A stretch of 64,000 bases of DNA from Nitrospinia bacterium (GTDB taxonomy: Bacteria; Nitrospinota; Nitrospinia; Nitrospinales; JAJDAT01), in contig JAJDAT010000049.1 of the NCBI GenBank assembly GCA_029261715.1, positions 248,001-312,000 on the forward strand, given 5' to 3'. The translations under genes and the position numbers were made by a program. How positions within the stretch are numbered: the stretch's first letter is position 1; every line of letters begins with the position of its first letter. This document shows positions 5,167-46,852 of the stretch, piece by piece. Below the pieces are notes generated by a model. That model was given only the letters and a program-made list of their open reading frames with translations. It made no database searches and was not told the DNA's origin.

Positions 5167-5171
5167 ACACC

Positions 5172-8695: not shown

Positions 8696-8809
8696 GATAA
8701 GTTGCCCAAATGTGTCGAATGCATTTTCATAAAACTGGCGAAACTCAAATAGGTTTCAAACCTTCTTTTAGCGACCTTCAGGTTTATTGAGACCAGGGGA
8801 AATTTCCCG

Positions 8810-31154: not shown

Positions 31155-32633
31155 CTAACCAACCAAGGACTCTAGATGGTTTTTTACTCGCGTTACTAAT
31201 TTTGGGTGGCGGTCGCCGCCAAGTTTGATAAACCTTCGGTAAAAATAAATGGCAGAGGTCATGTTGCCCATTTCTTCGTAAAGTAAACCTAAATTATAAT
31301 TTGTTCCTGGGTGTTCTGAATCTATTTTGAACGCTTTGTTATATACCGATTGGGCTTTTTCCAGCCAGTTTTGTTTTTTGTATATTATTCCTAAGTTATT
31401 ATAAGTTTCTAGATTGTCGGGTTCAGCCTGAATCGCCTTTTTGTAATTAGAAATAGCTCCTTTAATATTTCCCTTTTTATAATAGACGACTCCTATATTG
31501 TTATAGGCTTTTGAAAAATTAGGATCTATGTATAAAGCTCGCATAAACTGTTCAAGAGAAGCGTCATACATTCTTAACTTTTTATAAATTAATCCAATAT
31601 TGTTGTAGATTTCTGGATTTCTAGGATCTAATTCGGCGGCTTTTTGGTAATTGATCAAAGCTTCTTGATGATCTCCCGCTTCTTGATGGAAAGTTCCCAT
31701 GTTGAAGTAGTAATTTGAATCCTTAAAAATTTCAGGCGTCGTCGCTTTAGAAAGTGGAGGAGTGGACTCTAAACTTTTCATGGGAATCATTTCTTCGGGA
31801 GAAAAGTTCGCCATTTCCAATTTTTCTCGGCCCCCACCTGATATTTGTTCTAAAAATTCTTTCGGACTTAGAATGACAACATGTTTAATTTTTTCGTTTA
31901 GACTTTGTATATTAGACACGTTTGAGCTAGAGGTATTGGGTATTCGATTCTTCCGATATTTTTTCGCCGTTATTTTAGGGCCTCTTCTTATCTTGATCTC
32001 TAGGGGATGCAAATCTTTTACAGGAACAATTTCTGATGTTGTTCCTTGTTCGGAATTTGACATCTCATCTTCAGGTATTTCTATTTCAATCGGTTTTGCC
32101 TGAACCTGTGATTCTTTTTCCACCGCTGCAGGTTTGACCGGTTCATTTTCAGTAGGGTTTGAGCTTTCTGTATCGGTTGCAATATCGCTAGAATCTACAT
32201 CAGGTTCTGTTTGATCTAAGCTTTCGGCAGTTTGTGGAGGTACGAAAGGTTCTACTGTTTTAGTTTCTTTTACTGGGGGAACAGATGGAGCTGCAGGCTG
32301 TGGAGCTGAGGTCTGCGGAATTGGTTTAGGTTTTGGTTGCGCTGGAATTTTTGCGACTTGAGTTGGAATTTGTTTTTTACTTTTTAAACCCAGGGTTTCC
32401 CAAATAGATAGATCGGTAATTTTCACGCCTTTATCAAAAGCGCCAGAGAAAACTAGATAGGAAAAAACAATACCTAAGATTCCAATGGCTACCGCTTGCC
32501 CAAGCACTTTTTTGTCTGGAATCTTCCCAGAAGTCTTACCCTTTGACGCGATTAAATTAAACTGTGGGATTTTGGGTCCTAAAGATTCTTTAGCTTTTAA
32601 CGCTTTTTTAAGACTATCGGCTATTAAACTCAT
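31155..32633 (-). CDS. MshN/GspB-like anchor with TPR domain
   Basis: A 492-residue bitopic protein. The N terminus (SLIADSLKKALKAKES) resembles the ExeB/GspB/MshN opening. One membrane helix lies at about 45-65 (AVAIGILGIVFSYLVFSG), followed by a Pro/Glu/Thr-rich periplasmic linker. Residues about 305-490 carry at least five TPRs (NYYFNMGTFHQEAGDHQEAL, KAYNNIGVVYYKKGNIKGAI). In MSHA-type loci, MshN pairs with the ATPase MshM to couple the machine to the envelope. It starts 9 bases after the MshM-like gene, which supports that pairing. Assignment is by architecture and place; the TPR part alone would not define it. Confidence 0.75.
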   Translation of the reverse strand: MSLIADSLKKALKAKESLGPKIPQFNLIASKGKTSGKIPDKKVLGQAVAIGILGIVFSYLVFSGAFDKGVKITDLSIWETLGLKSKKQIPTQVAKIPAQPKPKPIPQTSAPQPAAPSVPPVKETKTVEPFVPPQTAESLDQTEPDVDSSDIATDTESSNPTENEPVKPAAVEKESQVQAKPIEIEIPEDEMSNSEQGTTSEIVPVKDLHPLEIKIRRGPKITAKKYRKNRIPNTSSSNVSNIQSLNEKIKHVVILSPKEFLEQISGGGREKLEMANFSPEEMIPMKSLESTPPLSKATTPEIFKDSNYYFNMGTFHQEAGDHQEALINYQKAAELDPRNPEIYNNIGLIYKKLRMYDASLEQFMRALYIDPNFSKAYNNIGVVYYKKGNIKGAISNYKKAIQAEPDNLETYNNLGIIYKKQNWLEKAQSVYNKAFKIDSEHPGTNYNLGLLYEEMGNMTSAIYFYRRFIKLGGDRHPKLVTRVKNHLESLVG

Positions 32634-32642
32634 AGCGGTCTC

Positions 32643-34079
32643 CTAACCGGAATTTGAAAGCGAAAGCAATAAAGGTTCTCGGCCAGAAGTTTTTAAACGC
32701 TTTAGGCTCGGTTTTGCTTCGGTTATTGTCCCAAATGGGCCTACGTAAACTACATACCAGATTTGCCCTGAAGAATTAATTTTTTTCCAATAGGTTTTGA
32801 ACCCTTCTGCTTTTAATATTCCCGCGTTTTTTTCAGCCTTTTTCTGTTTACTAAAAGCATAAACTTGTATTCTATAATCTTCTTTATAACTTTGTCCTAT
32901 CGGACTAGAAGGTCGACTGTTTTCTGTAGTTTGAACATTTGCATTACTTTTTGTTGGAGTTATGTTTTTCTTGATTTCAGCTAAATTCTCAGAGTTATTG
33001 GGCTGTAGAATAGGTGACGCTATCTCTTTATTTAAATTAGCGCCCCCCGAATTTGATTGTCCTGAAGTAAAGAAAATCAAACCTGCAATAAAAAATAGGA
33101 TTGAAAATGCCAAGCTTGAATTTTGTTTAATAAGTTCTTTCCAGGAACGTTCCATTGCGTCTACCCCGGAAAGACTTTTTATTCCTTGTTTCACATGACC
33201 GGATTCAATGGAGTCGGTTTGAGCGTTAAAAGCTGAAAGAAGAGCTCGATCGCTTACCAAATTAATGAGTCTTGGATAGCCTTTGGAATAGTTATATATT
33301 GTTTTTAATGCAGACGAATTAAATCGAATACGCGAAACGGTTCCAGCGATCATCACCCTATGATTAACGTAGTTGTATGTTTCTTCCCGAGTCAAAGGAG
33401 GAATTTGATAACGGATAGAAATCCTCTGATTTAATTGCTTTAATTCGGGGCGATTTAACTTTTCGGTTAATTCTAGCTGTCCAACGAAAATAATTTGGAG
33501 TAATTTTTCTTTTTCGGTTTCCAAGTTGGATAAAATCCGCACTTGCTCCATAACGTCGAAGGAAAGGTTTTGCGCTTCATCGATAATTAAAACCGTCGAT
33601 TTATTTTCTTCATGTTGTTTTAAAAGAAAAGCATTTAAAACGTCTATTAATTCTTTCTTTGAAAGGCAATCAATTAAAGATTTTTCTTCGATGGATTTTA
33701 AGTGACTTCCAGCTGTTGAATTTTGAGCCATTTGCCCAGTATCCCCAGGAATAACGTCTACAGGAGTATGGGCTAAATATAAACTAGGTTCTATCCGCAA
33801 GTCATAAAGGCATGTGCGAAGCAGATCTATATCGGAAAGCATTGGATTCAGTATAAGAGCGACTTGGACGGAGCTGTCCAGTCGGTCTAATAAGCAACGA
33901 CACAAAGTTGTTTTACCCGTGCCAACATCTCCGACAATGGTCATGAACCCTTCTTTTTGTTTTATTCCATATAACATATGATCCAAAGCTCCTTGGTGCT
34001 GCTTGCTCAAGTATAGAAACTTTGGGTCCGGAGTTAAACTAAAGGGTTTTTCTTTTAAACCATAAAAGCTTTCGTACAT
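32643..34079 (-). CDS. mshM: MshM/ExeA-family ATPase with C-terminal SPOR domain
   Basis: A 478-residue protein. It begins YGLKEKPFSLTPDPKFLYLS, the ExeA/MshM signature. Walker A (GDVGTGKTTL) spans residues 50-59, and the Walker B region reads STVLIIDEAQNLS. One membrane helix (SSLAFSILFFIAGLIFFTSG) lies near residue 325. The C-terminal about 75 residues form a SPOR domain (DYRIQVYAFSKQKKAEKNAG, WYVVYVGPFGTITEAK), which binds denuded peptidoglycan. ExeA itself usually has a peptidoglycan-binding domain of another fold, so SPOR gives an equivalent wall anchor. It should help the secretin pass the cell wall, using ATP in the cytoplasm. Confidence 0.88.
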   Translation of the reverse strand: MYESFYGLKEKPFSLTPDPKFLYLSKQHQGALDHMLYGIKQKEGFMTIVGDVGTGKTTLCRCLLDRLDSSVQVALILNPMLSDIDLLRTCLYDLRIEPSLYLAHTPVDVIPGDTGQMAQNSTAGSHLKSIEEKSLIDCLSKKELIDVLNAFLLKQHEENKSTVLIIDEAQNLSFDVMEQVRILSNLETEKEKLLQIIFVGQLELTEKLNRPELKQLNQRISIRYQIPPLTREETYNYVNHRVMIAGTVSRIRFNSSALKTIYNYSKGYPRLINLVSDRALLSAFNAQTDSIESGHVKQGIKSLSGVDAMERSWKELIKQNSSLAFSILFFIAGLIFFTSGQSNSGGANLNKEIASPILQPNNSENLAEIKKNITPTKSNANVQTTENSRPSSPIGQSYKEDYRIQVYAFSKQKKAEKNAGILKAEGFKTYWKKINSSGQIWYVVYVGPFGTITEAKPSLKRLKTSGREPLLLSLSNSG

Positions 34080-34141
34080 AAAAGACCAAAAATAGCGTTT
34101 AAAAAATTAAAGGTCAGTCAACAGGTGAGACCTTTTGCGAG

Positions 34142-36154
34142 TTAATTAAATTTTACTCCTAATTTTTTGGCATTCATAGATTCCGCAAGAACTCTTTCGT
34201 CGATTTTTTTCCCAGCTAAAACTTCAGGAGTTAATAAAATCACCAATTCGGTTTTTTCAGTAGTTTCCAGTTCTCGTTGGAATAGACGTCCAAAAATAGG
34301 AAGATCTTCTAAAAGAGGCACGCCGTTGGTTCCGGTAGTTTTCCGGTCTTGCATCAACCCCCCAATGATAATTGTCTGGCCATTTTGAGATAATACGACA
34401 TTGTTCGCTTCCCGAACATTTAGAATCGGGACTCGATTGATTCCGTCAGGAGAAACGGCTGTTCCAGTGCGTTCTGAAATACTGGTGTTAATGCTCATCA
34501 TAACCTGGCCATTGATATTTATTTGTGGCAACACGTCTAAAATAATACCCACCGTTACCGTAGCGGGTTGAAACGTCGTTGAAGAAGCGGTTGTCGTTGT
34601 CGCTGGAGTTACCTCGGGAACGAAGAAGACATCTTCCGTACCAACCTTAATAACAGCTCGTTGATTATTCAACGTCGCGATTTTAGGACTTGAAAGCACG
34701 GAAACAGAACCTTGATTTTGCAAAGCTTCCACTACTAAATTCAATTTGGCGTTGCTGATACCATAGGTCAAGTTAGAAGTCCCCTGTATCAGTGATGTTG
34801 CTGGATTACTGGCTAACCCATCGTGAATGATACTTATTGGGGTAACCGTGCTCCAATCGATACCCAAACGATACTCATCATTGAGATTGACTTCTAAAAT
34901 TTGAGCTTGGATATAGACTTGGCGTTGAGTTGACCCTTCGACCGCTTCTAAATATTCAGCGACACTAAGCAATTGTTCTGGATAGTCTTTTATTATAATT
35001 AATCCAGCTTGTTTATTAATCGAAACGAAACCATTTTCTGTTTTGCCATCGGCTCCACTATCTTCTTCAGCCTCAGCATCGCCTTCAGCTGGGGCTGCTG
35101 GGGCTGCCGCTCCACCTCCTAGTGATCCTAAAGCCGCGCTTAGAGGACTTGCCGCTGCCGCTGGCGCTGCCGCTCCTGCCGCCGCTCCCGCTCCTGCCGC
35201 TCCATCAGCTCCGCTATCTCCAACTCCGTCAATATTTGTTCCTGGGCTAAGAAATTGTCTAAGGCCAACTGTGATTTCGTTCCATAGATCGGTTTCTTCC
35301 GTAGAAATTAAGCTACTAGTTGTCCGCGCGTTGCCTGAACCGCTTGTACCTCCAGAAATACCAGCTCCAGAAATTTGAGAGCCACTGGAAGATTGAAGGT
35401 TACTGCTACCTTGACGGCGAGAAATAATATAATTTAAATGGAAAATCCGAGTTTCCATTTTATCTGCCGTTACTCGGATGTAATTTTTTTCTATGGTGTA
35501 TTTTAATTTTAGAGGGGTTAATAGAGCTTCCAATACCTCTCTGAGTGGAACATCTTTTAAGTCCACCGATGCTTTTTGTCTAATAGATGGATCAATTAAG
35601 ATGTTTTGGTCAATTTCCTTTGAGATTGAGAATAAAATTGTTTTTATGTCGACATCTTTTGCGGAGATACTAAACTTTGGTCCTCTATCCCTTAATCTTC
35701 TAGTTTCGGTATCGCTCTGAGTTAAAAGAATTTCTGTCGGGTCATCTTCAGGAAGCGAATTTTTATTTGATTTAGTTTTTCCAGAAGCAGGCTCTAACTC
35801 GTCGCTTAGGTCGGCTTCTGGGTATAGAAACGATTGTTGAGTTTCAACTAAGCTTCTTAGAGGCGATCTTCGTTTTCTCTTTTTGCTGCCACTCTTTTTT
35901 AATGTTCTCGCGACTTGCTCTGTTTCTATATCCTCATCCCAGTCTTCGTTAGATTCAGATTTTTCTGGTTTTTGAGCGTCAACGGAAAGAGCAGCTTCCG
36001 AAGCTGTTTTCGGATTTTCATTTTCTTTATAGGCGATTTTATTGGATATGCAAGCGGATAGATAAAAGATTCCTATAAAAAGAAATAAGGTTACCTTTTT
36101 AGCAGTATATATAAAAAACCCGTTACTTATCTGAACCAGGCGGCAGGAGGGCAT
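34142..36154 (-). CDS. mshL: MshL/PilQ-type secretin lipoprotein
   Basis: A 670-residue secretin. The N-terminal leader ends in a good lipobox (IFYLSAC), so the mature protein is probably acylated. A short STN/N0-like domain (IDQNILIDPSIRQKASVDLK, LREVLEALLTPLKLKYTI) precedes N1, then the secretin barrel domain (YIQAQILEVNLNDEYRLGID; LSSPKIATLNNQRAVIKVG; GGLMQDRKTTGTNGVPLLED). It forms the outer-membrane pore for the pilus. About residues 255-380 hold a Ser/Gly-rich then Ala/Gly/Pro-rich low-complexity insert splitting the N domains, which is unusual. It is preceded by a 322-base gap, so it may have its own promoter. Confidence 0.92.
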   Translation of the reverse strand: MPSCRLVQISNGFFIYTAKKVTLFLFIGIFYLSACISNKIAYKENENPKTASEAALSVDAQKPEKSESNEDWDEDIETEQVARTLKKSGSKKRKRRSPLRSLVETQQSFLYPEADLSDELEPASGKTKSNKNSLPEDDPTEILLTQSDTETRRLRDRGPKFSISAKDVDIKTILFSISKEIDQNILIDPSIRQKASVDLKDVPLREVLEALLTPLKLKYTIEKNYIRVTADKMETRIFHLNYIISRRQGSSNLQSSSGSQISGAGISGGTSGSGNARTTSSLISTEETDLWNEITVGLRQFLSPGTNIDGVGDSGADGAAGAGAAAGAAAPAAAASPLSAALGSLGGGAAAPAAPAEGDAEAEEDSGADGKTENGFVSINKQAGLIIIKDYPEQLLSVAEYLEAVEGSTQRQVYIQAQILEVNLNDEYRLGIDWSTVTPISIIHDGLASNPATSLIQGTSNLTYGISNAKLNLVVEALQNQGSVSVLSSPKIATLNNQRAVIKVGTEDVFFVPEVTPATTTTASSTTFQPATVTVGIILDVLPQININGQVMMSINTSISERTGTAVSPDGINRVPILNVREANNVVLSQNGQTIIIGGLMQDRKTTGTNGVPLLEDLPIFGRLFQRELETTEKTELVILLTPEVLAGKKIDERVLAESMNAKKLGVKFN

Positions 36155-36476
36155 TTTTTGCTTATATCTAAGGTTTTCGAATTGATGTATAATTAGTGTA
36201 AATTACAATGAATAATAATACATTAAATTAAAGAAATAGTCTAAATAAAATTGATTTTATTGAAGTTATTTAGTTTTTAGGTGGAAGGTAGAGTTCTGAT
36301 AAAAAAGCTATTTAGCATGAAAAGTTGAGAATTAGGACATTTTGAAGGAAGGAGTCTCTAGAAATGGAAATTTTTCGAGATTTAACTTGTTGAGGTTTTT
36401 CCTATTAGAAGGGGTAATTAACCTATTTTTTATGCGTGCAAAAGGAGAAAGTGTAATCTTCGAAATTGGAATCTTT
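36155..36476. other. Intergenic gap upstream of the secretin gene
   Basis: A 322-base AT-rich stretch between the PilP/MshK-like gene end and the secretin start. Several TATTAT/TATACA-like hexamers occur on the minus strand, none with a good -35. A 60-codon plus-strand frame crosses its edge but overlaps the end of the PilP-like gene and has no coding character. A secretin promoter may lie here. Confidence 0.4.
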
Positions 36477-36989
36477 TTAGTTTCTGTCTTTATTGACCTT
36501 AATTCTAAAGTAGCTATTTTTTAAAGTTAAGGTAGTGCGTTCTGCATCATTTTCGAGTATTACTCGATCACTTGAAATGGCGACTACTTTTTTCCCAAAA
36601 GCAATATCGCCGACTTCGAAATTAAAATTGTTAATAGTGGCAATTCGGTTTTTTTTGGTAATTGTGATGGCTTGTAAACTAGGTTCCCCTTCAGGCTCTG
36701 CAGGTTTTTCTTCATTAATTAGTTCAGATTTTAAATAAACGCCATCAGGTAATAAAAACGGATTTCGGACCTCTCCCTCACTTTCATCCTCGGTAGGAGG
36801 TCGTCTATCTGAAAAATTTTCTCCAGGTTTTCCCTGCATTGAAGGGTTTTTTCCTGGAGGCGGAGGGAGCTTTCCTAGATTAGATAAAGGGAGTTGGTTT
36901 TTAGGTTGTTGAGAATACGAAAATGGAGAAAAAGAAAAAAAACACATAAATAAAGAAACTAGAAATAAAACCAAACGCGAATGGATCAT
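36477..36989 (-). CDS. PilP/MshK-like periplasmic protein
   Basis: A 170-residue exported protein with a signal peptide (VLFLVSLFMCFFSFSPFSYS). A Pro/Glu-rich linker is followed by a small C-terminal beta domain (FEVGDIAFGKKVVAISSDRV, ERTTLTLKNSYF). The layout fits MshK/PilP/GspC-type proteins, which link the inner-membrane platform to the secretin. It starts inside the stop of the PilO-like gene (4-base overlap) and shares its operon. Family identity comes mainly from layout and position; primary sequence in this group is poorly conserved. Confidence 0.7.
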   Translation of the reverse strand: MIHSRLVLFLVSLFMCFFSFSPFSYSQQPKNQLPLSNLGKLPPPPGKNPSMQGKPGENFSDRRPPTEDESEGEVRNPFLLPDGVYLKSELINEEKPAEPEGEPSLQAITITKKNRIATINNFNFEVGDIAFGKKVVAISSDRVILENDAERTTLTLKNSYFRIKVNKDRN

Positions 36990-37570
36990 ATGAGTGCGTA
37001 AAGTTTTAAGGTTAGCTTAGTTTGAATATTAGGTAAAATTTCGTCTTTTCTTTTGATTTCTATCGTATCCAGAAAAATAATCGCGGGAATTTTCTCTAGA
37101 CCTTCAATAAAACTGGCAATTGCTTGGTAATCGCTATGAATAACCATTGTGACAGTTACTTCTTTATATTTTAATTTTCCCTTTTTTATTTCTTCGTCAG
37201 TGGTTTTAGTCGATTTTAGTATCGCCTTGCTTTTTTCAGCTTCGGCGTTCATGGCGTTTAATATTTCAAGGTAACTGCCCCTCATTCTACTTTTTGCAAA
37301 TTTAATATCCTTTTTCAATTGAGCGTTATTATCTTTAAACTTATTGATTTTTTGCTCTATATTTTTAACGCTGGCCGCCGCTGGAATTATTCTTGCCAAA
37401 GAATTTAAAGAAGTATTGGTTTTATTTATTTGAGAGGTAATTTTTTTTAGTTTTTTTTCTTGTACTTCGTACTCAAGTTTGAAAAAACCTAAGCCAACAA
37501 CCACTAATGTCATTGCGACCATGATTGCTTTCTCTCTCGGGGTAAGCTTTTTTATATCAAACTTATTCAT
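36986..37570 (-). CDS. pilO: PilO/MshJ-like inner-membrane protein
   Basis: A 194-residue bitopic protein. A short cytoplasmic N terminus (FDIKKLTPREKAIMVAM), a membrane helix near residues 15-32 and a periplasmic coiled coil (about 35-85) lead to a ferredoxin-like domain (LKYKEVTVTMVIHSDYQAIA, FIEGLEKIPAIIFLDTIEI). This is the PilO/GspM pattern. PilO pairs with PilN, here fused to PilM, and with PilP in the alignment complex. It overlaps both neighbours by 4 bases, indicating coupled translation. Confidence 0.85.
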   Translation of the reverse strand: MNKFDIKKLTPREKAIMVAMTLVVVGLGFFKLEYEVQEKKLKKITSQINKTNTSLNSLARIIPAAASVKNIEQKINKFKDNNAQLKKDIKFAKSRMRGSYLEILNAMNAEAEKSKAILKSTKTTDEEIKKGKLKYKEVTVTMVIHSDYQAIASFIEGLEKIPAIIFLDTIEIKRKDEILPNIQTKLTLKLYALI

Positions 37571-39402
37571 GTGGTAGATTTCGTAGCGCTTTTATTGTTT
37601 GATTTTCTAATAGATAGATTTTCTGATTCTTTAGGAAAAGCGGTGATTTTAAATTTCAAGCCAGGGCTAGTGTAAACTTCAGTTCCCTCGGCTTGTGTGT
37701 CTTCTAATTTAAAAACTGTAAAAAAAGGCGATTCTTTTAGGGAACTGAGAAAATCAGTGAGCGCTTGTAATGATGTTCTTTCGTTTCCAAAGAAAATGCC
37801 TTTAAGAAAAATATCTCCCCTTTTTTTATCCTTTTTGTCTCTTTTAGCTTTGTACACTAATTTTAATAGAGAGGTTTCAGGAGGAGTGATTTTTGCGATT
37901 GTATTTAACGTTTCCTTGATATCGATTACTCGATAAACACCGGGAAGGTTCTTAAGCTGTTTTTCTAAAGATTCTCTTTCTACAATAATTTTTTCCAAAA
38001 CTTTTGCGGGGTTTTGAGCCGCTTCAGCTGCAGCTTGCATAGTGGCAAACTGTTGTTGAATTTTATTTAATCGTTTTTCTGAAGTTTCAATTTTTCCTCT
38101 AACGCTAGAACTAACCAACATTATTGCAATGATAAATAGAGGAATTAATGAATAAGGAGCCCATTTAATAATATCTTTTTTAACAGAGTATCTAGATTCT
38201 TCAGGTAGTACATTAATTCGGCTAGCCTTTCCGAGCGCTAAACCTGCGGCGGTCGTTAAACTGGGGCCTAAAAGTTTGGTGTTTTCTTGCGATACATTAT
38301 CTAATGGTTTGGTTGATTGAAATAAAGGATTACATCTCTCGATAGGGATTTCCAAACTTCCAGAAAGAAATTGATAAAAACCCTTTAAGCTGCCGGAACC
38401 TCCAGAAAGTATGATGCGATGAACTGCATTTTGCTTATACTGATTTTTGAAATAATCAATAGAACGCATAAATTCTTCCAATTGCTTTTCTACAACAGGG
38501 AGAATTCTTTCTCGGATATCAAGAAGCGGAATTCCTTCTTGAGTGATTTCTAATGAATCCTCAGCGGGCAACCCATAAGTTTTTTTAATGGTCTCCGCTC
38601 GGACAGCGTCAACGCTGACCTTGGTTTCGTCTTCTAAAGTATAGTCTCCGGTAATAGCGCCAGTAACGTTTTTACCGCCATTAGGAATTTCTCTTGAAAA
38701 CCTTAGTTCGCCATCTATAACAAAATAAACTCTAGTTCGTTCGGCGCCCATATCAATATAACTAGTTACGGTGCCAGGCTCTAACTGATTGAAAGAACTG
38801 TCATAGTGCCATAAAGCTAAAGGAATTATTGTGACGCCTAAGGGTTTTAAACCTGCTTTTTCAGCAATAGAAACAAGGAATGGAACAATATCCGCTCGTA
38901 CAATAACGCTCAATAATTGGTAGTATGAAATGCCGTCGTCTTTAGTGATTTCGCCAGTAATATGGTAATCAGCAAAAGCGTCTTCAACAGAAAAAAGAAC
39001 TTCTTCCTTTGCGTTCCATCGGGTGGCGTCTAAGATCTCTTCTTTGGGGATTTGGGGTAGCTCTAAATGACGGATAACAACATTGTGTCCGCTCACCGAT
39101 AAATATATTTTGTCTGTATCGAAGTTTTTCTCTTCAAACATGTGCTTGATCATTTGACCAAGAGCTTGAGCGCGGTCTGGAACAGCTAAAACAGAAGGAG
39201 GAATTTCTTTTACGGCAAAATTAGTAATTTCAAACCCGGACGCGTGAGAAACTACTTCAACTATTTTTACAGAATGAAATCCAATATCTAAACCCACGCT
39301 CTTTCCAATAGCGCCTTTTCCCAACCCGGGGATTTTAAAAGGTGGGAACTTAAACGGGAGTTTAAATGGAAGTTTTATTGGAGGAAGTTTTAGTTTGCTC
39401 AT
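37567..39402 (-). CDS. pilM: PilM-PilN fusion protein
   Basis: A 611-residue protein joining two subunits that are usually separate. Residues about 30-390 form an actin-like PilM/GspL cytoplasmic domain (SVGLDIGFHSVKIVEV, YIDMGAERTRVYFV, ILSGGSGSLKGFYQFL). A membrane helix (WAPYSLIPLFIIAIMLVSSS) lies near 407-427, and the rest is a PilN-like periplasmic region with coiled coil and ferredoxin-like fold (LNTIAKITPPETSLLKLVY). The first about 30 residues are a Lys/Pro-rich repeat (KLPFKLPFKFPPFKIPG) not typical of PilM. GspL of type II secretion has the same fused layout. Overlap with the PilO gene supports a shared complex. Confidence 0.88.
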   Translation of the reverse strand: MSKLKLPPIKLPFKLPFKFPPFKIPGLGKGAIGKSVGLDIGFHSVKIVEVVSHASGFEITNFAVKEIPPSVLAVPDRAQALGQMIKHMFEEKNFDTDKIYLSVSGHNVVIRHLELPQIPKEEILDATRWNAKEEVLFSVEDAFADYHITGEITKDDGISYYQLLSVIVRADIVPFLVSIAEKAGLKPLGVTIIPLALWHYDSSFNQLEPGTVTSYIDMGAERTRVYFVIDGELRFSREIPNGGKNVTGAITGDYTLEDETKVSVDAVRAETIKKTYGLPAEDSLEITQEGIPLLDIRERILPVVEKQLEEFMRSIDYFKNQYKQNAVHRIILSGGSGSLKGFYQFLSGSLEIPIERCNPLFQSTKPLDNVSQENTKLLGPSLTTAAGLALGKASRINVLPEESRYSVKKDIIKWAPYSLIPLFIIAIMLVSSSVRGKIETSEKRLNKIQQQFATMQAAAEAAQNPAKVLEKIIVERESLEKQLKNLPGVYRVIDIKETLNTIAKITPPETSLLKLVYKAKRDKKDKKRGDIFLKGIFFGNERTSLQALTDFLSSLKESPFFTVFKLEDTQAEGTEVYTSPGLKFKITAFPKESENLSIRKSNNKSATKSTT

Positions 39403-39537: not shown

Positions 39538-40749
39538 TCAACCTGAATAGTCTGGTGGTAATTGCTCGCCGCCAGCTCCACCTTGGCATTGTCCATATCC
39601 TTCGGCTTCGGAACCAGCTAAACTACCGTAGACAAGGTTAGAGTTATTTTTTAAAGTGACGTTGTCGCCAAATAACGCGCCGTATGAGTCGTTATTGTTT
39701 TTAACCAATATATCGTCGTTAGCGATAATTCCGCCGACAAAAACTGTAGAATTTTCTGTCGTAGCATTTGTTCCGGCTAAGACTAAAACGTCTTCAACCC
39801 CAATTATAGGAGTTTGGTTTAGTCCATGAACTTGGTTAATTTTGCCTGTATTGTCCAGTTTAAATAACCCATTACTATGTAATGTTAACGCTCCATCTTT
39901 ATTAGTACTATCGTTAACGTCAAAATCAGCGTTATTTTTTACTTTAATAAAGCCGCGCGCTTTAAAAACTACCTTTGCGTTATTTCGAATTTTAATGGAG
40001 CTTTGGTTTTTTAAGATTAGATTATTTTCAATTTCAATCGTTTTGTTGGAAGAAATAGTGAACGAGTCTGATCCGTCAATTACAAGTTTACAAAACTTAA
40101 ATTGATTGAGCTCACCGGCAGTTACATGGGTTGCAAAATTAAAGTTCGGGTATGTAGCATTCGGACAAGACGCGTCAAATTCCGGTATAGATTCCACTAA
40201 AGGTAATTCGCAAGGTACAAGTCCAGTACTCGCGTCAGTTTCGGCGTTATTGAGTATATTAATACTTGTACAAGCTGAAACTGAATGAGTTGTAAAAGCA
40301 CACCCGCCAGCCATCGAAACAGTTTTTGCTATGATTCTTTCAGCCATATTAAATGTTCCAATGGAAGCCGCTCTAACCGAGCTAGCGCTTTTAGCTGAAA
40401 ATGCGACTGTAAACGCTCCACCGGAAATAGGGATTGGAGTTGTGATATCGGGAACTGTTGCCCAAGTAGAACAACTAGAACCGCCTTGATTACACCAACA
40501 TGACGTATTGGTTGGGTCTTTGATTAAACACCCTTCTACATAACGGATACCAGACTCAGCTATAAAAAAAGCATTTGTCGAAGTCCTTGTTAGAGCGCTG
40601 CCAGCATGTTTATGCTTGGATTCGACCCAAAAGTTTAAAGCTACCGTTCCTAAGACAACGACAGTTATTACCGCTCCCATTAAGGCCGCGATACCCGACT
40701 GTCCTTTTATGTAGCGAAAAAAATGTTTTTCAAAGAAACGCGATATCAT
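39538..40749 (-). CDS. PilX/MshP-like minor pilin-type protein with repeat C terminus
   Basis: A 403-residue protein. Near the N terminus, GQSGIAALMGAVITVVVLGT and the hydrophobic helix after it match PilX_N/MshP proteins, which lack the full GFTLxE motif. A short cysteine-rich region follows (SCWCNQGGSSCS). Residues about 210-385 are Asn/Val-rich, with spaced repeats (IEIENNLILKNQSSIKIRNN, KVKNNADFDVND, DILVKNNNDS, NVTLKNNSN), suggesting a beta-solenoid. It overlaps the PilW-like gene by 4 bases. Compared with ordinary PilX (about 170-200 residues) it is twice as long. A tip or adhesive role is inference. Confidence 0.75.
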   Translation of the reverse strand: MISRFFEKHFFRYIKGQSGIAALMGAVITVVVLGTVALNFWVESKHKHAGSALTRTSTNAFFIAESGIRYVEGCLIKDPTNTSCWCNQGGSSCSTWATVPDITTPIPISGGAFTVAFSAKSASSVRAASIGTFNMAERIIAKTVSMAGGCAFTTHSVSACTSINILNNAETDASTGLVPCELPLVESIPEFDASCPNATYPNFNFATHVTAGELNQFKFCKLVIDGSDSFTISSNKTIEIENNLILKNQSSIKIRNNAKVVFKARGFIKVKNNADFDVNDSTNKDGALTLHSNGLFKLDNTGKINQVHGLNQTPIIGVEDVLVLAGTNATTENSTVFVGGIIANDDILVKNNNDSYGALFGDNVTLKNNSNLVYGSLAGSEAEGYGQCQGGAGGEQLPPDYSG

Positions 40750-41261
40750 AAATATCCTCTAGGCCTTACAGAAGCTTGTAAAGAATAAGTTTCTCCCGTA
40801 GATTTTGACTGGGCAATAGTGAATTGAAATAGATTGGTCTCAACAACGTTTATAGTAAAACCGGACACGTTATTAACGATATTTTCGGATGCAGCGCCCG
40901 TCCTAACAATGCTTGAAGAGACTAAAGAATAAGAAACAGATCTTGGATTAGTCGTGTCTTGCAATAAACCGCCACGATCAAAAAATATTGCGCTATAAGT
41001 ACTGCCTACTAAACAGGCCCCTCCAAGAGTTCCACAAGAAATAACGGTGGTTCCATTTTGTGCAAATCTTAACTCTCTTATAAGGTATTCCATACCCAGC
41101 TTGGCTTCGTCGACCAAATCTTTTTTCTGTGCATGAGCTTGATTGAGGCTGATAATATCCAAAACATATTTCATGGATATAGTTCCAACCACAGAAGCTA
41201 AAACAATGCTTATGATTATTTCAATAAGCGTGAAGCCTTTTTTGTTTTTTAGTAATTTCAT
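40746..41261 (-). CDS. PilW/MshO-like prepilin
   Basis: A 171-residue prepilin with a class III-like N terminus: the short leader MKLLKNKKG, then FTLIEIIISIVLASVVGTI. Glu5 of the mature protein is present, so prepilin peptidase PilD should cleave after the Gly and methylate Phe. The soluble domain has FDRGGLLQDTTNPRSVSYSL, as in PilW/PulJ minor pilins, and one pair of cysteines (CGTLGGAC). Minor pilins prime fibre assembly. It lies between two other pilin-like genes in the same operon. Confidence 0.85.
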   Translation of the reverse strand: MKLLKNKKGFTLIEIIISIVLASVVGTISMKYVLDIISLNQAHAQKKDLVDEAKLGMEYLIRELRFAQNGTTVISCGTLGGACLVGSTYSAIFFDRGGLLQDTTNPRSVSYSLVSSSIVRTGAASENIVNNVSGFTINVVETNLFQFTIAQSKSTGETYSLQASVRPRGYL

Positions 41262-41270
41262 AATTTGAAA

Positions 41271-41693
41271 TTATTGCGTAAAAAGATTGACGAAACTAAG
41301 TTCTTCCATTTCTGGGTGGCTAATTCCCAGCGTTACTTTTTTCCCAAAACCTGCTGCGCCTAGCGCAGTGTCTAAATCTCCAGCGGCTACATCTATAATT
41401 GAACAAGTTAGAGTAAACGCGCCGTCTGCTCCATTCAAGCTTGAACAATCTGAAGTAATAGAAGTGACAGTTTTATCCGCTAATGTCTCCATATGTTTTT
41501 GAGCCAAGAAAGAAGCCTGAACCACAATTTCTGGAGATTGAGTATATTTTAAGCTGGTAAAAGGAACCATGATTGCCGGCACCGATATACCTATAAGAAC
41601 GATGGACATAATGATTTCTGGTAACGTAAAACCTCTAGCATTACAGAATATCTCAGTCTGTTTCCGAATAAATTTGTTTAGTAAGGTATTCAT
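41271..41693 (-). CDS. PilV/MshD-like prepilin
   Basis: A 141-residue prepilin. The N-terminal cleavage region reads NARGFTLPEIIMSIVLIGIS, with the G-F junction and Glu5 intact. The start is the ATG at 41693, 7 bases beyond the preceding stop. A longer frame reaching 41765 would run back into the GspH-like gene and lacks prepilin leader character. The soluble part has CSSLNGADGAFTLTCSI with a likely disulfide pair. It fits a PilV/GspI-type minor pilin of the MSHA-like operon. Confidence 0.85.
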   Translation of the reverse strand: MNTLLNKFIRKQTEIFCNARGFTLPEIIMSIVLIGISVPAIMVPFTSLKYTQSPEIVVQASFLAQKHMETLADKTVTSITSDCSSLNGADGAFTLTCSIIDVAAGDLDTALGAAGFGKKVTLGISHPEMEELSFVNLFTQ

Positions 41694-41700
41694 AACTCGT

Positions 41701-42183
41701 CTAAGGCTCGGTAATTGTAACAATCCCAGTATAGGGTTGAACCGTAATAGTATAAGTAACTGCATTTAGACCTAAATTAAGAGCCCATGCGGTCGCTCCA
41801 ATTTCAGGCTCTCCGTGTTTATTGAAGTAAAGCGAATTACTTGTTATGGAATTTACGGTAACCTCTGGGGCGAATTCTCTTAATTCTCCTAAGATACCAT
41901 TGGTATCAACTAAGTTATAAGTCCATTTACCACTTGGATCCTGGCTAAAAACAAGTCCTGCCTTGTTGGCTGCAGTTCCCATATTTCTAGACATCCCTAC
42001 TTCCTGCACCAGGCGAATATCAGATTCTAAAGCCTGCGCAGACAGCGTGGGATTAATAGATTCATTTTTGAAGTTAGGTACGGCAACTGCGGCAACAATA
42101 CCAGTCAACAAAACCACGATGATGATTTCCATCAACGTAAAGCCGTCGGATGCTTTTATTTTTTTATTTTCCAGAATTCTCAT
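41701..42183 (-). CDS. GspH/FimT-like prepilin
   Basis: A 160-residue prepilin with leader MRILENKKIKASDG and mature start FTLMEIIIVVLLTGIVAAVA; Glu5 is present. The region after the helix (LSAQALESDIRLVQEVGMSR) matches GspH/FimT minor pilins. An in-frame TTG at 42249 has been excluded as the start because it is the first three bases of the -35 element TTGACA. The ATG at 42183 leaves a leader RNA of about 30 bases. It is the first gene of the MSHA-like operon. No separate major pilin gene of the usual type was seen. Confidence 0.87.
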   Translation of the reverse strand: MRILENKKIKASDGFTLMEIIIVVLLTGIVAAVAVPNFKNESINPTLSAQALESDIRLVQEVGMSRNMGTAANKAGLVFSQDPSGKWTYNLVDTNGILGELREFAPEVTVNSITSNSLYFNKHGEPEIGATAWALNLGLNAVTYTITVQPYTGIVTITEP

Positions 42184-42525: not shown

Positions 42526-44085
42526 TTGATAAGCAATAAAATATCATTTCCATTTTATGGCAGAATTTTACTGACCAGCATTTCCTCTATACTTGCTTGG
42601 CTATTTTATCCAGGCGTAGAGGGGGAAGGTTTTTCTTTCTTAGCCTGGTTTGCAATGGTTCCGTGGGGTTTAGCGTTGGTTAATGCTAAACCAGCTGAAG
42701 GCGCAGTTTGTGGCTTTTTTTTCGCTTTTTTCGCTTTTTTTGCTATTTGTTCAGGGTTTATCAACGGGATAGAAAGTTGGCTTGAGTTTTCATTTGTTCT
42801 CACCGTATTATGGTATAGCTTAGTTTGCGCATTTCAGGCGATCCCTTATGCTTTGTTTGGTTGGTGCCAAGGCAAGTTTGGATGGTTAGGGAAACCTTTT
42901 GGCCCAATACGCGCCGCTGCATGTCATTGTTTGATTCTTGTGCTCGTCCCCGCCTTACTGCCAGGTAATATAACTCATGCTTTTTATAATTCTCCCCGTG
43001 TCATTCAAATTTTGGATTTGGGTGGAATTCCACTTTTGTTATTTACGATTATCTTGTCGAACTGGTTGGTCCTAGATTTAATCTTAAAGATAAAGAATAA
43101 ACAGAAACCAACAGGGGTTTTTATTTGCTTAGTATTACTTCATCTATTTATTTTAGGTTACGGTACTTTTCGGTTAGACCAGTTTCATAATCTAGAGAAG
43201 TCCGCAGATAAAAATCAGATCTTACGAGTTGAATCGATACAGCCCAATTTACCCATTCATTCGAATAAAACAGGAGTTGATTTATTAGACGTCGCCTTTG
43301 AGTTAACGGAAAAAAGCGCCGAAAGTAATCCTAAAGGGGAATTAGTGGTTTGGCCTGAAATTCCTTTAACGCCAACTTGCGATGATAGAGATTACCGGAA
43401 CAAGTTGAGCGCTTTGGCAAAAAAAATCAATCGTAGGATTTTAGCGCCTTGTACCTGGGTATTTAAAAAACCTTACCGTTATACAAATACTATGCGGATG
43501 ACATTGCCTTCGGGGGAATTTAGCAAAGAATATAATAAGATAATATTATTTCCTTTTGGAGAATACATCCCATTTGAGGACAAACTTCCTTTTTTGCGGA
43601 AATTATTTCAAAGGACCCGACATTATATTGCAGGAGAAGAACGTACAATATTCGACCTGAGCAAAGGAAAGAGAATAATACCGGTCATTTGTTATGAATC
43701 TGTTTTCACTGATCTAATTCGTGGATTTGTTGAGCAAGGGGGAAACGCGATCGTGAATATGTCTGATGACGCCTGGTTCGGGAAGAGCGGTCTTTCATTG
43801 ATTCATTTTTCATTAGCGGTCTTTCGCTCGGTAGAATATCGCGTGCCGATAGTTCGAGTCACAAACTCTGGGGTTGGGGCTTTTGTTAAAGCCACTGGAG
43901 AGATAATACCAGCGTCTGTAACACCTTTACTTAAGACTAAGACAACTTCATTTCCGTTATTTATTCCTAAAGATCGTTCAATTTACTTCTATACAGGCAA
44001 TATTTTCTTTTGGTTGTTATTAAGTTTATTTTGCGTGGATTTATTATGGAAACCAGCGCTTTGGATTTTCAATAAATCGTTATAA
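42526..44085 (+). CDS. lnt: Apolipoprotein N-acyltransferase Lnt
   Basis: A 519-residue protein with about six N-terminal membrane helices and a periplasmic nitrilase-type domain. The catalytic triad is visible: Glu278 (VVWPEIPLTPT), Lys338 (YNKIILFPFGEYIPF) and Cys389 (PVICYESVF). Lnt adds the third acyl chain to lipoproteins, needed for their export to the outer membrane. This fits the several lipoproteins in the window. The TTG start follows AAGG by 11 bases, so the exact start is less sure. It is divergent from the pilin operon. Confidence 0.95.
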   Translation: MISNKISFPFYGRILLTSISSILAWLFYPGVEGEGFSFLAWFAMVPWGLALVNAKPAEGAVCGFFFAFFAFFAICSGFINGIESWLEFSFVLTVLWYSLVCAFQAIPYALFGWCQGKFGWLGKPFGPIRAAACHCLILVLVPALLPGNITHAFYNSPRVIQILDLGGIPLLLFTIILSNWLVLDLILKIKNKQKPTGVFICLVLLHLFILGYGTFRLDQFHNLEKSADKNQILRVESIQPNLPIHSNKTGVDLLDVAFELTEKSAESNPKGELVVWPEIPLTPTCDDRDYRNKLSALAKKINRRILAPCTWVFKKPYRYTNTMRMTLPSGEFSKEYNKIILFPFGEYIPFEDKLPFLRKLFQRTRHYIAGEERTIFDLSKGKRIIPVICYESVFTDLIRGFVEQGGNAIVNMSDDAWFGKSGLSLIHFSLAVFRSVEYRVPIVRVTNSGVGAFVKATGEIIPASVTPLLKTKTTSFPLFIPKDRSIYFYTGNIFFWLLLSLFCVDLLWKPALWIFNKSL

Positions 44086-44197: not shown

Positions 44198-44212
44198 TAA
44201 AAGGTTGTTTTT
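44198..44212 (+). repeat. Shared 15-base upstream element, copy 1
   Basis: TAAAAGGTTGTTTTT occurs here and again at 45583-45597, upstream of the two paralogous Asp-Lys protein genes. It lies 64 bases before the first start codon. It may be a remnant of the duplication or a common regulatory site. Confidence 0.4.
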
Positions 44213-44275
44213 CAAAAGACTTAGGGATAGATTAATAGTAAGAAAAAACCTAATATTCAAATTGTGATAAGGCCA

Positions 44276-45475
44276 ATGAAAAATAAGCCCCTCGAAAATA
44301 ACAAGATAAAATTTGTTTTTAAGGATTCCCAATCTTTAAAAGCTTTGGGTTTTAGCTTGTTTTTTGCGCTGGCTTTATTGTTACCTAATCCTATAAGCAA
44401 TAATTTTGTCGGCAAGGCATATGCCGGAGGAGGAGACCCTTCGCCATCTCCGTCACCATCTCCGTCGCCTTCACCATCGCCATCTCCGTCACCATCGCCA
44501 ACTATTGATGAGTGTGAATTAGGTAGTTCAAATTCATGGAATTATGATTGGGATAATTGTTCTCGGTCTATCGATTGCGATTCTATCAATACCTTGAAAA
44601 TGCGTTACGACGAGCAGTTCACCGCTACCAATTTTCCGGCTCCCAATATAACCGTTACAGGGAAGGATGCAGGAGATAGTTGTACGATTGATGTTAATTT
44701 AACAAAAGTTTCCGGTGGAGATGATTGTGGGTATGCTTTATATAAGAGTGGCAGCACACAACTGAAGATAAATACGAAAGTAATTAATGGAGCTACTGAT
44801 TGTGAAATAAGGATTAATGTGACAGCTCCTAAGACAACGCATTTGGGTGTCAGCTCAGATACTAGCGAGTGGGGTTTTGGTATTCGGGCTAATAAGGCAT
44901 GGGCCTCTGTTGAAGGAATGAAAGGTTTTGTATCAGTACATTCAACAACAGGCGATTTACGAGCAGATGTTACTTCCGATAACGTTTTTATGACCTCAGT
45001 GACCGGAAACTTATGGGCCATAGGTTTAACCCAAAAAGCTGAATTAAGAACTTGTTCTGATATTAGAGCTGAATATTGCTCAATTCCAAGCGGATCTAAC
45101 TATCTAAGGGTAGATACGAAGAGAGCGGGGAATGGCGTTCGTAATAGCGGGACTACATGTAGCGTTGGCGATTCAGATAAGGATAAAGACAAAGACAAGG
45201 ATAAAGACAAAGACAAAGACAAGGATAAAGACAAGGATAAAGACAAAGACGACGATGAGGATGAAGATGAAGAAGATCCTCATGGAAATATAGACGCTCA
45301 ATATATTCCTACGACAGCCTTCAAAGAAGAGTTGAGTGTTGACTTAACCAAATATCGCAACGATATTGGAAATTGCCCAGGATGCTCCTATAAATTGGAC
45401 GCGGACAGTTTGGGTCATGTATATGTTATTAAGAAAAATGTTCCGTCTGGTACGACGAACATTTGCGCTTACTAA
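44276..45475 (+). CDS. Exported protein with Pro-Ser and Asp-Lys tracts, copy 1
   Basis: A 399-residue protein of no recognised family, with a signal peptide (ALGFSLFFALALLLPNPISN). After it come a Pro-Ser repeat (about residues 53-75), then a Cys-containing beta-rich domain (VDCD-like opening CDSINTLKMRYDEQF, NLTKVSG) and a part with SVHSTTGDLRADVTSDNVFM resembling DUF4097-type beta-solenoid adhesins. A tract of twelve Asp-Lys pairs, an Asp/Glu run and a conserved C-terminal domain (VDLTKYRNDIGNCPGCSYKL, LGHVYVIKKNVPSGTT) complete it. ATG 44276 is chosen over GTG 44264 because of its AAGG. It is paralogous to the next gene. A surface or matrix role is inference. Confidence 0.75.
   Translation: MKNKPLENNKIKFVFKDSQSLKALGFSLFFALALLLPNPISNNFVGKAYAGGGDPSPSPSPSPSPSPSPSPSPSPTIDECELGSSNSWNYDWDNCSRSIDCDSINTLKMRYDEQFTATNFPAPNITVTGKDAGDSCTIDVNLTKVSGGDDCGYALYKSGSTQLKINTKVINGATDCEIRINVTAPKTTHLGVSSDTSEWGFGIRANKAWASVEGMKGFVSVHSTTGDLRADVTSDNVFMTSVTGNLWAIGLTQKAELRTCSDIRAEYCSIPSGSNYLRVDTKRAGNGVRNSGTTCSVGDSDKDKDKDKDKDKDKDKDKDKDKDKDDDEDEDEEDPHGNIDAQYIPTTAFKEELSVDLTKYRNDIGNCPGCSYKLDADSLGHVYVIKKNVPSGTTNICAY
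45176..45280 (+). repeat. (Asp-Lys)12 plus acidic codon repeat
   Basis: Twelve consecutive GAY-AAR codon pairs run from 45176 to 45247, followed by GAY/GAR codons to about 45280. Third positions vary (gat/gac, aaa/aag), so the amino-acid pattern is better kept than the DNA pattern. This suggests selection on the peptide as well as slippage. Confidence 0.85.
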
Positions 45476-45787
45476 TTTCCCCCTTCCTTTAATTTTCAAA
45501 AAAGCTTATTGAGCTTCTTTTTCCTCTCAATAGATCTCTTCTGAAAAAGATTGAAAATCCTGTAGTTAAGCTAAATAATTTGTAAAAGGTTGTTTTTGAA
45601 TGCTTTGAAGCGTAAATTATAGTGAACTCTGATTTCTATTTAATAGACTCAATCGAATTCTTATGAATAAGATAGAGGTTGGTATAGGATGGATTCCTGG
45701 TTTCTTGGTTAAATTATTTTCAAAATAATATGGCCTACAGAGTGTCCCAATAAATCTTTAAATTTAAAATAATTTAGGTATTAAGCG
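45476..45787. other. Intergenic gap between the paralogous genes
   Basis: A 312-base AT-rich gap. It contains a short hairpin (AAGCT/AGCTT, 45502-45516) followed by TTTTT that may terminate the first gene, and the second copy of the 15-base element (45583-45597). No gene is seen; a promoter for the second gene is likely but not clear. Confidence 0.4.
45583..45597 (+). repeat. Shared 15-base upstream element, copy 2
   Basis: TAAAAGGTTGTTTTT, identical to 44198-44212. It lies 191 bases before the start of the second paralogue, against 64 bases for the first, so spacing is not kept. Confidence 0.4.
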
Positions 45788-46852
45788 ATGAATCAAATAT
45801 CAAAATACATTAAAACGCTTGTTCGGATTTTTTCATTTTGTGTCGTGGCAATATCATTGCTTTTTATCCCTCTGAATTTTTCGTTAGTTAGTGAAGCGCA
45901 AGCCGTAGATTGTGAAATAGGATCATGGGAATATGACTGGAGTAGCTGCACGGTGTCGGTTGATTGCGATTCAATCAATCGACTAAGAGTTATTTACAAC
46001 GTGCAATTTACTGCAACTGATTATTCAGCTCCGAATATTTTTGTGGAAGGAAAAGACACTCCAGATGAATGTACTTTTGATTTTAATTTAACGAAAGTGA
46101 CTGGAGACGACGATTGTGCCTATAAGATTTATAAAGATAGTAGTGACAGCAGACTGAATTTGAATACCAAGCGTCGAAACGGGGCTACCAATTGCGAAAT
46201 TAGAGCGAATATTACAGCCCCTCGAACTATGAAAATAAATAATATTACCGCGAATAAGGCTTGGGCGTCCGTTGAAGGAATGACAAATGAAGTTATTGCT
46301 AAGTCTACCACGGGAGATCTTCGAGCCGATGTTACCTCTAATAAGGTAGTTTTATTATCTGAAACCGGTAATCTATGGGCTTCTGGCTTAAAAAAGACAG
46401 CAACGTTAAGGACTTGTTCGGATATACGAGCATTTTATTGTGTGATTCCGACTACGAATCATTCTCTTATAACTAATACAAAAATATCTGGGACACAGCT
46501 TGCTTGTGTTGTAGAAGATTCCGATAAAGACAAAGACAAAGATTCAGACAAAGACAAGGATTCAGACAAAGACAAGGATAAGGACAAAGACAAAGATTCA
46601 GACAAAGATAAGGACAAAGACAAGGATAAGGACGAGGATGAAGACGAAGAAGACAGTCACGGAAATATAGACGTCCAGTTTCTTCCAACAACTGAATTTA
46701 GAGAAGTCCTGGATGTAGATTTAACCAAATATCGTAATGATATGAGTAACTGTCCTACCTGTAGGTTTAAATATAAACCAAGCAGTTTGGGGCATGTTTA
46801 TGTCATTGAGAAAAATGTTCCAGCCGGAACCACAAACGATTGCCCATATTAA
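45788..46852 (+). CDS. Exported protein with Asp-Lys/Asp-Ser tract, copy 2
   Basis: A 354-residue paralogue of the preceding protein. Signal peptide (VVAISLLFIPLNFSLVSEAQA) and no Pro-Ser repeat. The Cys-rich N domain (VDCDSINRLRVIYNVQF), the solenoid-like part (IAKSTTGDLRADVTSNKVVL, SETGNLWASGL), the CSDIRA motif and the C-terminal domain (VDLTKYRNDMSNCPTCRFKY) are well conserved. The charged tract is built as Asp-Ser followed by 3, 2, 5 and 5 Asp-Lys pairs, then Asp/Glu. Both end in a lone Cys plus Pro/Ala-Tyr. No family is recognised. Regular Asp spacing might bind calcium, but the Gly expected of true calcium loops is missing. Confidence 0.75.
   Translation: MNQISKYIKTLVRIFSFCVVAISLLFIPLNFSLVSEAQAVDCEIGSWEYDWSSCTVSVDCDSINRLRVIYNVQFTATDYSAPNIFVEGKDTPDECTFDFNLTKVTGDDDCAYKIYKDSSDSRLNLNTKRRNGATNCEIRANITAPRTMKINNITANKAWASVEGMTNEVIAKSTTGDLRADVTSNKVVLLSETGNLWASGLKKTATLRTCSDIRAFYCVIPTTNHSLITNTKISGTQLACVVEDSDKDKDKDSDKDKDSDKDKDKDKDKDSDKDKDKDKDKDEDEDEEDSHGNIDVQFLPTTEFREVLDVDLTKYRNDMSNCPTCRFKYKPSSLGHVYVIEKNVPAGTTNDCPY
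46517..46656 (+). repeat. Asp-Ser/Asp-Lys codon repeat
   Basis: Four blocks open with an Asp-Ser pair and continue with 3, 2, 5 and 5 Asp-Lys pairs, then Asp/Glu codons. An 18-base unit (gattcagacaaagacaag) recurs, so this copy shows more DNA-level duplication than copy 1. Confidence 0.85.

Follow-up and report, generated by a model that had tools for sequence, protein, structure and literature searches.

Tandem Genes for Exported Toastrack-like Proteins with Alternating Asp-Lys Tracts near Type IV Pilus Genes of a Nitrospinia Bacterium

The subject of this study is a pair of adjacent genes (positions 44276 to 46852) in a 64,000-nucleotide stretch of DNA from a Nitrospinia bacterium (contig JAJDAT010000049.1, positions 248,001 to 312,000), which in its entirety is termed the window. 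Our best explanation, to which we assign a probability of roughly one half, is that these genes are tandem copies encoding an exported, strongly diverged Toastrack adhesin-like protein that works with the neighboring type IV pilus; its probable function is that of a secreted adhesin, at the tip or accessory, filling the position that PilY1 occupies elsewhere. The fold of the proteins, the linkage of their genes to minor-pilin genes, their distribution, and the properties of their Asp-Lys (DK) tracts were obtained by computation. The sample comprised 77 Nitrospinota genomes, of which 64 belong to the order of the window genome and 13 are others of the class; the class set is the same as the phylum set. 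The window genome is the sole representative of its own genus and family.

The Two Tandem Genes

An initial annotation, made from the letters alone, described two adjacent exported paralogues at this place. Their coordinates, their leaders, as judged by inspection, and a sequence identity of 62% between the copies all agree with that description. The genes and their parts, all on the + strand, are as follows.

44198..44212, +: first copy of the 15-mer TAAAAGGTTGTTTTT, upstream of gene 1 (repeat search)
44276..45475, +: gene 1, exported Toastrack-like protein copy 1, 399 residues (open reading frame and translation; 16 further genomes of the order have relatives)
44276..44425, +: signal peptide of copy 1 (MKNK...KAYA), by inspection (hydrophobic stretch, then AYA)
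44438..44500, +: (Ser-Pro)10 linker after the leader, copy 1 only (tandem repeats at 44441-44500 and translation)
44537..44848, +: N-terminal Cys-rich part of the predicted Toastrack fold, copy 1 (alignments; seven strands in a relative's model)
44876..45169, +: predicted beta-helix part, copy 1 (alignments; DUF4097 match of relative L034)
45170..45277, +: DS(DK)12DDDEDEDEED tract, copy 1 (repeat and translation analysis)
45281..45472, +: C-terminal strands, copy 1, ending in CAY (alignments)
45583..45597, +: second copy of the 15-mer TAAAAGGTTGTTTTT, upstream of gene 2 (repeat search)
45788..46852, +: gene 2, exported Toastrack-like protein copy 2, 354 residues (open reading frame and translation; AlphaFold2 model)
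45788..45904, +: signal peptide of copy 2 (MNQI...SEAQA), by inspection
45926..46240, +: N-terminal Cys-rich part, copy 2 (alignments and AlphaFold2 model)
46241..46516, +: predicted beta-helix part, copy 2 (alignments and AlphaFold2 model)
46517..46654, +: DS-punctuated DK tract (3, 2, 5, and 5 pairs) and DEDEDEED, copy 2 (in the model, low confidence and without secondary structure)
46658..46849, +: C-terminal strands, copy 2, ending in CPY (alignments)

The start codon of copy 1 is ATG 44276, with GTG 44264 as a possible alternative. Copies 1 and 2 contain 12 and 13 cysteines, respectively, and the 5.3 Mb genome holds no further copies. The 15-mer TAAAAGGTTGTTTTT is identical upstream of both genes (observed 2, expected 0.08), which fits an old tandem duplication; the synonymous divergence (dS) between the copies is saturated. 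The translations of both window proteins contain no LPXTG motif, and neither protein matches N_methyl, unlike three neighboring genes. Scans for promoters and terminators gave signals at chance level. The (Ser-Pro)10 linker of copy 1 was absent from the earlier description.

Fold of the Proteins

The initial annotation recognized three separate domains belonging to no named family. Neither view is supported by closer analysis, which points to one remote Toastrack fold (DUF4097/DUF2807) with these domains as its successive parts. Tract-free rows, in which split genes were joined in silico, were searched against Pfam, and 8 of the 16 match DUF4097 (Toastrack, PF13349; best 2.2e-7). In the unmodified genomes, only member L034 of genome G003 passes the curated DUF4097 cut-off (29.3 bits versus 22.9), with near misses among others. 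The AlphaFold2 model of a relative from genome G002 (predicted local distance difference test, pLDDT, 85.7; predicted template modeling score, pTM, 0.85) contains seven N-terminal strands, followed by the strands of the helix. The model of window copy 2 shows a confident fold up to the tract, with the C-terminal part unplaced; the model of the G002 relative, which has a short tract, places this part. For both models, the top Foldseek matches are putative adhesins of the DUF4097/DUF2807 type (4qrk, 3ljy, 4opw, 3lyc, and 3pet), with a probability of 0.99-1.00 for 4qrk. By definition, the Toastrack helix is right-handed and single-stranded and follows an N-terminal region of seven strands. A published description, which names 4QRK and 4OPW, likewise combines a beta-helix with seven N-terminal strands (PMC11237479). 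A profile search against PDB sequences gave no match. Because two models, many targets, and a Pfam match agree, the Toastrack assignment appears good as a fold, and it is weaker as strict family membership. Prediction and fold search show the ordered parts as one fold, in which seven N-terminal strands precede a beta-helix and the C-terminal strands come last.

The proteins share with the DUF4097/DUF2807 Toastrack proteins (PDB 4QRK, 3PET, 4OPW, 3LJY) the predicted seven-strand N-terminal part and beta-helix, the top Foldseek matches, and one relative above the Pfam cut-off. They differ in being exported and Cys-rich, in carrying DK tracts inside the fold, and in often being split into two genes; most members of the present family also fall below the Pfam cut-off. 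The Toastrack proteins of phage-shock systems (PSP/Lia) are regarded as intracellular and are coupled to PspC, LiaI-LiaF-TM, or PspA, whereas signal peptides are recognized here by inspection and no such neighbor occurs among the listed genes. Pfam and NCBIfam matches of the whole window proteins (ZrgA, MSCRAMM, Vfa1, and others) were set aside as driven mainly by the low-complexity tracts.

Linkage to Minor-Pilin Genes

The neighborhood of the two genes contains the components of a type IV pilus.

42526..44085, +: apolipoprotein N-acyltransferase, lnt (CN_hydrolase, LNT_N), between the pilins and the Toastrack genes in the window genome
41701..42249, -: FimT/GspH-type minor pilin (N_methyl, weak GspH match), whose orthologue in relatives stands head to head with the gene of the Toastrack protein
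41271..41765, -: PilV-type minor pilin (prepilin motif)
40746..41261, -: PilW-type minor pilin (N_methyl)
39538..40749, -: PilX-like protein with a long beta-rich C-terminal part (alignment; weak DUF7305 match; co-occurs with the family)
31155..39402, -: pilus machine genes for PilM, a PilO-like protein, a gene in the PilP position, an MshL/PilQ-type secretin, an AAA ATPase, and a TPR protein
7493-8695 of the window: PilC
4093-6338 of the window: two PilT-family ATPases

The Toastrack gene is divergent from the FimT/GspH-like gene in all 13 loci with enough flanking sequence, which represent several genera and families. The gap between them is 30-490 bp in 12 loci, when the most upstream start codons are used, and 2.0 kb in the window, where lnt lies between. 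Within the order, the PilX-like gene occurs in 14 of 17 genomes that carry the family versus 9 of 47 that do not (Fisher 6.6e-6, uncorrected for relatedness). Since the order conserves this PilX-like protein, with its long beta-rich C-terminal part, it is also a possible component of the tip.

PilY1 (PF05567) was found in 0 of the 64 genomes of the order versus 7 of the 13 others of the class, in a set in which many genomes are incomplete and diverged copies could partly be overlooked. In other bacteria, the priming and tip complex is made up of PilY1 and minor pilins (PMC7541494). Like the PilY1/PilC tip adhesin (PF05567), the present proteins are exported non-pilins encoded with minor pilins of the FimT, PilV, PilW, and PilX types (PMC7541494, PMC13190605). 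Unlike it, they lack a PilY1 domain or beta-propeller, with no PF05567 match in the window proteins, and they are much smaller and divergently transcribed. The family is a possible functional replacement for PilY1 rather than a member of its family.

Gene Architecture in Relatives

A search of the order yielded remote relatives with 29-41% identity per segment, and a profile search places the family in 17 of the 77 genomes, all within the one order. Relatives outside these genomes were sought only with f4 patterns (f4 being a family of the order); a search of a wider contig collection with the f4-alignment profile gave 8 loci, labeled Nitrospina, Nitrospinaceae, or Nitrospinota. Complete relatives comprise the N-terminal Cys-rich part, the beta-helix part, and the C-terminal part, usually ending in C-P-[YF], C-K-[YF], or C-L-Y.

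Three arrangements are found. In one, a single gene carries its tract at the junction of the N-terminal part and the helix (G002, G003) or at both the N-terminus and the same junction (G058, G060, G061). In another, which is that of the window genome, the full-length gene is present in two tandem copies with the tract at the junction of the helix and the C-terminal part. In the last, found in nine f4 genomes (G018, G032, G033, G034, G037, G038, G040, G042, and G044), two adjacent genes encode the N-terminal part and then the helix plus the C-terminal part. Both products have a leader of their own, and almost all of them also carry a DK tract. The locus of G057 is apparently a shortened version of the split pair, and that of G036 is interrupted by a contig end. 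Tracts thus occur at three different junctions across the family, and their length varies among relatives, in line with the initial annotation. Conservation of the pair, which it suggested looking for, was rejected, because the full-length tandem pair is confined to the window genome. What is kept instead is one Toastrack protein, whole or split, beside minor-pilin genes.

A sequencing error as the origin of the split was rejected, given that many genomes encode a separate leader on each half. The reading frames of the halves overlap in several pairs and are <=80 bp apart in others, which suggests that their translation is coupled. In four pairs, homology between the leaders of the first and second halves is clear (z 11 to 28); it is weaker in others and not detectable in G018. 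Since such homology is the expected remnant, the split probably arose via whole-gene duplication and complementary loss. The window pair is a full-length tandem pair, but its own leaders are dissimilar and the tree gives no sign that it is a precursor. The tree, where the placement of some long branches may be wrong, nests the fused g16 genes among split genes, and their fork with the split g12 genes has a support of 100/97. This nesting makes re-fusion likely, and three relatives look re-fused. Because the predicted seven-strand N-terminal part and the beta-helix form one fold, both the point of the split and the G002 and G003 tracts would fall within that fold, where its two main parts meet.

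These features permit a more speculative proposal, which we consider rather unlikely in its full form. In f4, a Toastrack adhesin would be divided at the junction of the N-terminal strands and the beta-helix into two secreted chains, which would reassemble extracytoplasmically on a type IV pilus lacking PilY1, with the DK tracts as matched spacers or a docking element. Between the halves, the numbers of DK pairs are correlated (rho 0.73, p 0.025, n=9, uncorrected for relatedness).

Several relatives have further peculiarities. In three g12 genomes, the leader and the DK tract of the second-half protein (L038:9893-10732, L039:8257-9108, and L044:3087-3935) are separated by a His-rich stretch, HTHTHSHGN..HSH, which is possibly metal-binding. 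In first-half proteins, a CHYPPGNPAN...CVGEDAVAAHIKNHADTVGKC module lies between the tract and the N-terminal part (L035:5037-5777, L040:9652-10419, and L042:2764-3522), and a similar motif occurs in pilin L127. In L046 (G057), positions 8792-9930 hold a truncated Toastrack first half followed directly by a truncated pilM-like frame, as if the minor pilins had been lost along with part of the Toastrack gene or the assembly were chimeric.

Properties of the DK Tracts

The pair counts given initially for the tracts, (DK)12 in copy 1 and 3, 2, 5, and 5 pairs split by DS in copy 2, are exact. From the D and K frequencies of the proteins themselves, the per-site probability of (DK)12 is about -24 on a log10 scale. 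The description of the tracts as zwitterionic applies to the DK part, in which the charges are balanced. Both tracts continue into DEDEDEED, and the region as a whole is acidic, with a net charge of -9 in copy 1 and -10 in copy 2. The claim that codon variation preserves the peptide pattern is borne out as well. Summed over the tracts of the family, 54 identical adjacent 6-mer units are observed versus about 72 expected under independent codon choice. Because synonymous codons are mixed in this way, recent slippage has left no trace, and the peptide is what is kept.

The unit (DK)5 occurs in 19 of the 77 genomes; (EK)5 occurs in 1 of 77, once. Among proteins outside the family that contain (DK)5, a hydrophobic N-terminal stretch is present in 17 of 18 versus 50 of 123 control open reading frames (p 1.4e-5). 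They include PilX_N, prepilin-like, DUF2231, DUF4402, and PKD proteins as well as small exported ones. The small proteins (68-115 residues; L115, L119, L123, L126, L128, and L095) are composed of a leader and a DK tract with little else, and several have a Lys/Gly-rich tail, KKRGKSKGKGKKKGHNK. The occurrence of DK tracts in minor pilins of PilX_N type (L127:117-1850, G042) and of prepilin-like type (L129:848-1525, G036) is a second tie between tract and pilus. At the end of the window (58009-64001), several more open reading frames contain long Glu/Asp-rich acidic stretches.

The initial suggestion of a spacer at the surface or in a matrix holds in part, with a spacer as the likeliest role; for a matrix, there is nothing beyond the export signal. 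A chain whose charges alternate evenly stays expanded and is only weakly attracted to other chains (PMC7503639). The use of Asp rather than Glu should also disfavor helices. For these two reasons, a spacer role is preferred over a sticky one. Because the window tracts end in purely acidic stretches, they could possibly bind cations as well. The tracts share with the alternating (Glu-Lys)n model polyampholytes the one-by-one succession of opposite charges (kappa = 0), for which an expanded chain with weak interchain attraction is expected (PMC7503639). They differ in being natural, in having Asp for Glu, in belonging to exported proteins, and in being accompanied, in the window, by an acidic stretch. 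The Ser-Asp stalks of the MSCRAMM proteins (ClfA, SdrC, SdrD) are likewise low-complexity, Asp-containing dipeptide repeats that serve as surface spacers. Those proteins combine an IgG-like A domain, LPXTG, and Ser-Asp repeats, whereas the window proteins have Asp-Lys repeats, no LPXTG, and an unrelated fold; their NCBIfam MSCRAMM matches are weak, far below the cut-offs, and produced by the repeat.

Proposed Role and Alternatives

From these observations, we infer pilus association and adhesion. In relatives, the Toastrack gene and the minor-pilin operon lie close together and are transcribed divergently, so the two are probably co-regulated. The protein would be exported by the Sec pathway and then bind the minor-pilin complex or be displayed on the surface. 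At the junctions of its single predicted fold, the DK tract would act as a hydrated, expanded, non-helical spacer that loosens or extends one part against the next, a role to which its position, its variation in length, its predicted lack of structure, and the preference for Asp over Glu point. In f4, the separately exported halves presumably reassemble outside the cytoplasm.

Several observations weigh against this account. The window proteins themselves have no Toastrack match in the Pfam scan, the Foldseek E-values are modest (about 1e-3), and Toastrack proteins in phage-shock contexts are thought to be intracellular (PMC11237479). The apparent lack of PilY1 may partly reflect overlooked copies. 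The Toastrack gene occurs in only 17 of the 64 genomes of the order, and several genomes have a pilin cluster without it; since such genomes exist, including some with the PilX-like gene, the protein would be an optional rather than essential part of the pilus. In the window, 2 kb and lnt separate the Toastrack genes from the pilins, and some proteins with DK tracts have no known pilus link. These last points, together with the presence of tracts in a variety of exported proteins, including some that contain PKD or DUF4402 domains, could also be explained by a surface or matrix protein unrelated to pili, with the neighborhood as conserved gene order and the DK tract as the lineage's general surface spacer. 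We consider this less probable, though a serious contender, because every testable locus, across several genera and families, retains the divergent arrangement with the FimT-type gene, the family co-occurs with the PilX-like gene, and DK tracts are also found in the PilX_N and prepilin-like proteins of relatives.

The protein could instead be a periplasmic or surface stress sensor or a cation binder, in which Toastrack docks envelope proteins and the Asp-rich tract binds Ca2+, Mg2+, or other metals. Toastrack domains have been proposed as docking platforms in envelope stress systems (PMC11237479), PilY1 itself is calcium-dependent (PMC8833165), the tracts end in purely acidic stretches, and there are weak ZrgA-like matches and the His-rich stretches of three relatives. 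However, every Asp within the DK part is matched by Lys, no PspA, PspC, or LiaF partner is seen adjoining the gene, the ZrgA-type matches follow composition, and the His-rich stretch is absent from the window proteins, making this explanation improbable. The zinc idea based on the last two features was rejected as inapplicable to the window proteins. Least probable is that the DK tracts are neutral low-complexity expansions without function on an ordinary exported protein. Their length does differ among relatives, and they lie at loop positions tolerant of insertions; however, synonymous codons are mixed with no excess of identical adjacent units, the other DK proteins almost all belong to the envelope, the order commonly has (DK)5 but hardly any (EK)5, and both halves retain tracts after the split in nearly all genomes.

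Significance

Nitrospinota include important marine nitrite oxidizers, and their pili are treated by few papers in the literature searched. An exported family that is found in one order, has nearly all members below the Pfam threshold, and is tied to minor pilins where PilY1 was not found constitutes a testable candidate for attachment. The DK tracts, which occur mainly in exported proteins, are a natural, lineage-specific counterpart of the (Glu-Lys)n polyampholyte of physicists. As an example of how proteins can undergo fission via duplication and complementary loss, the split genes and those that look re-fused would be useful.

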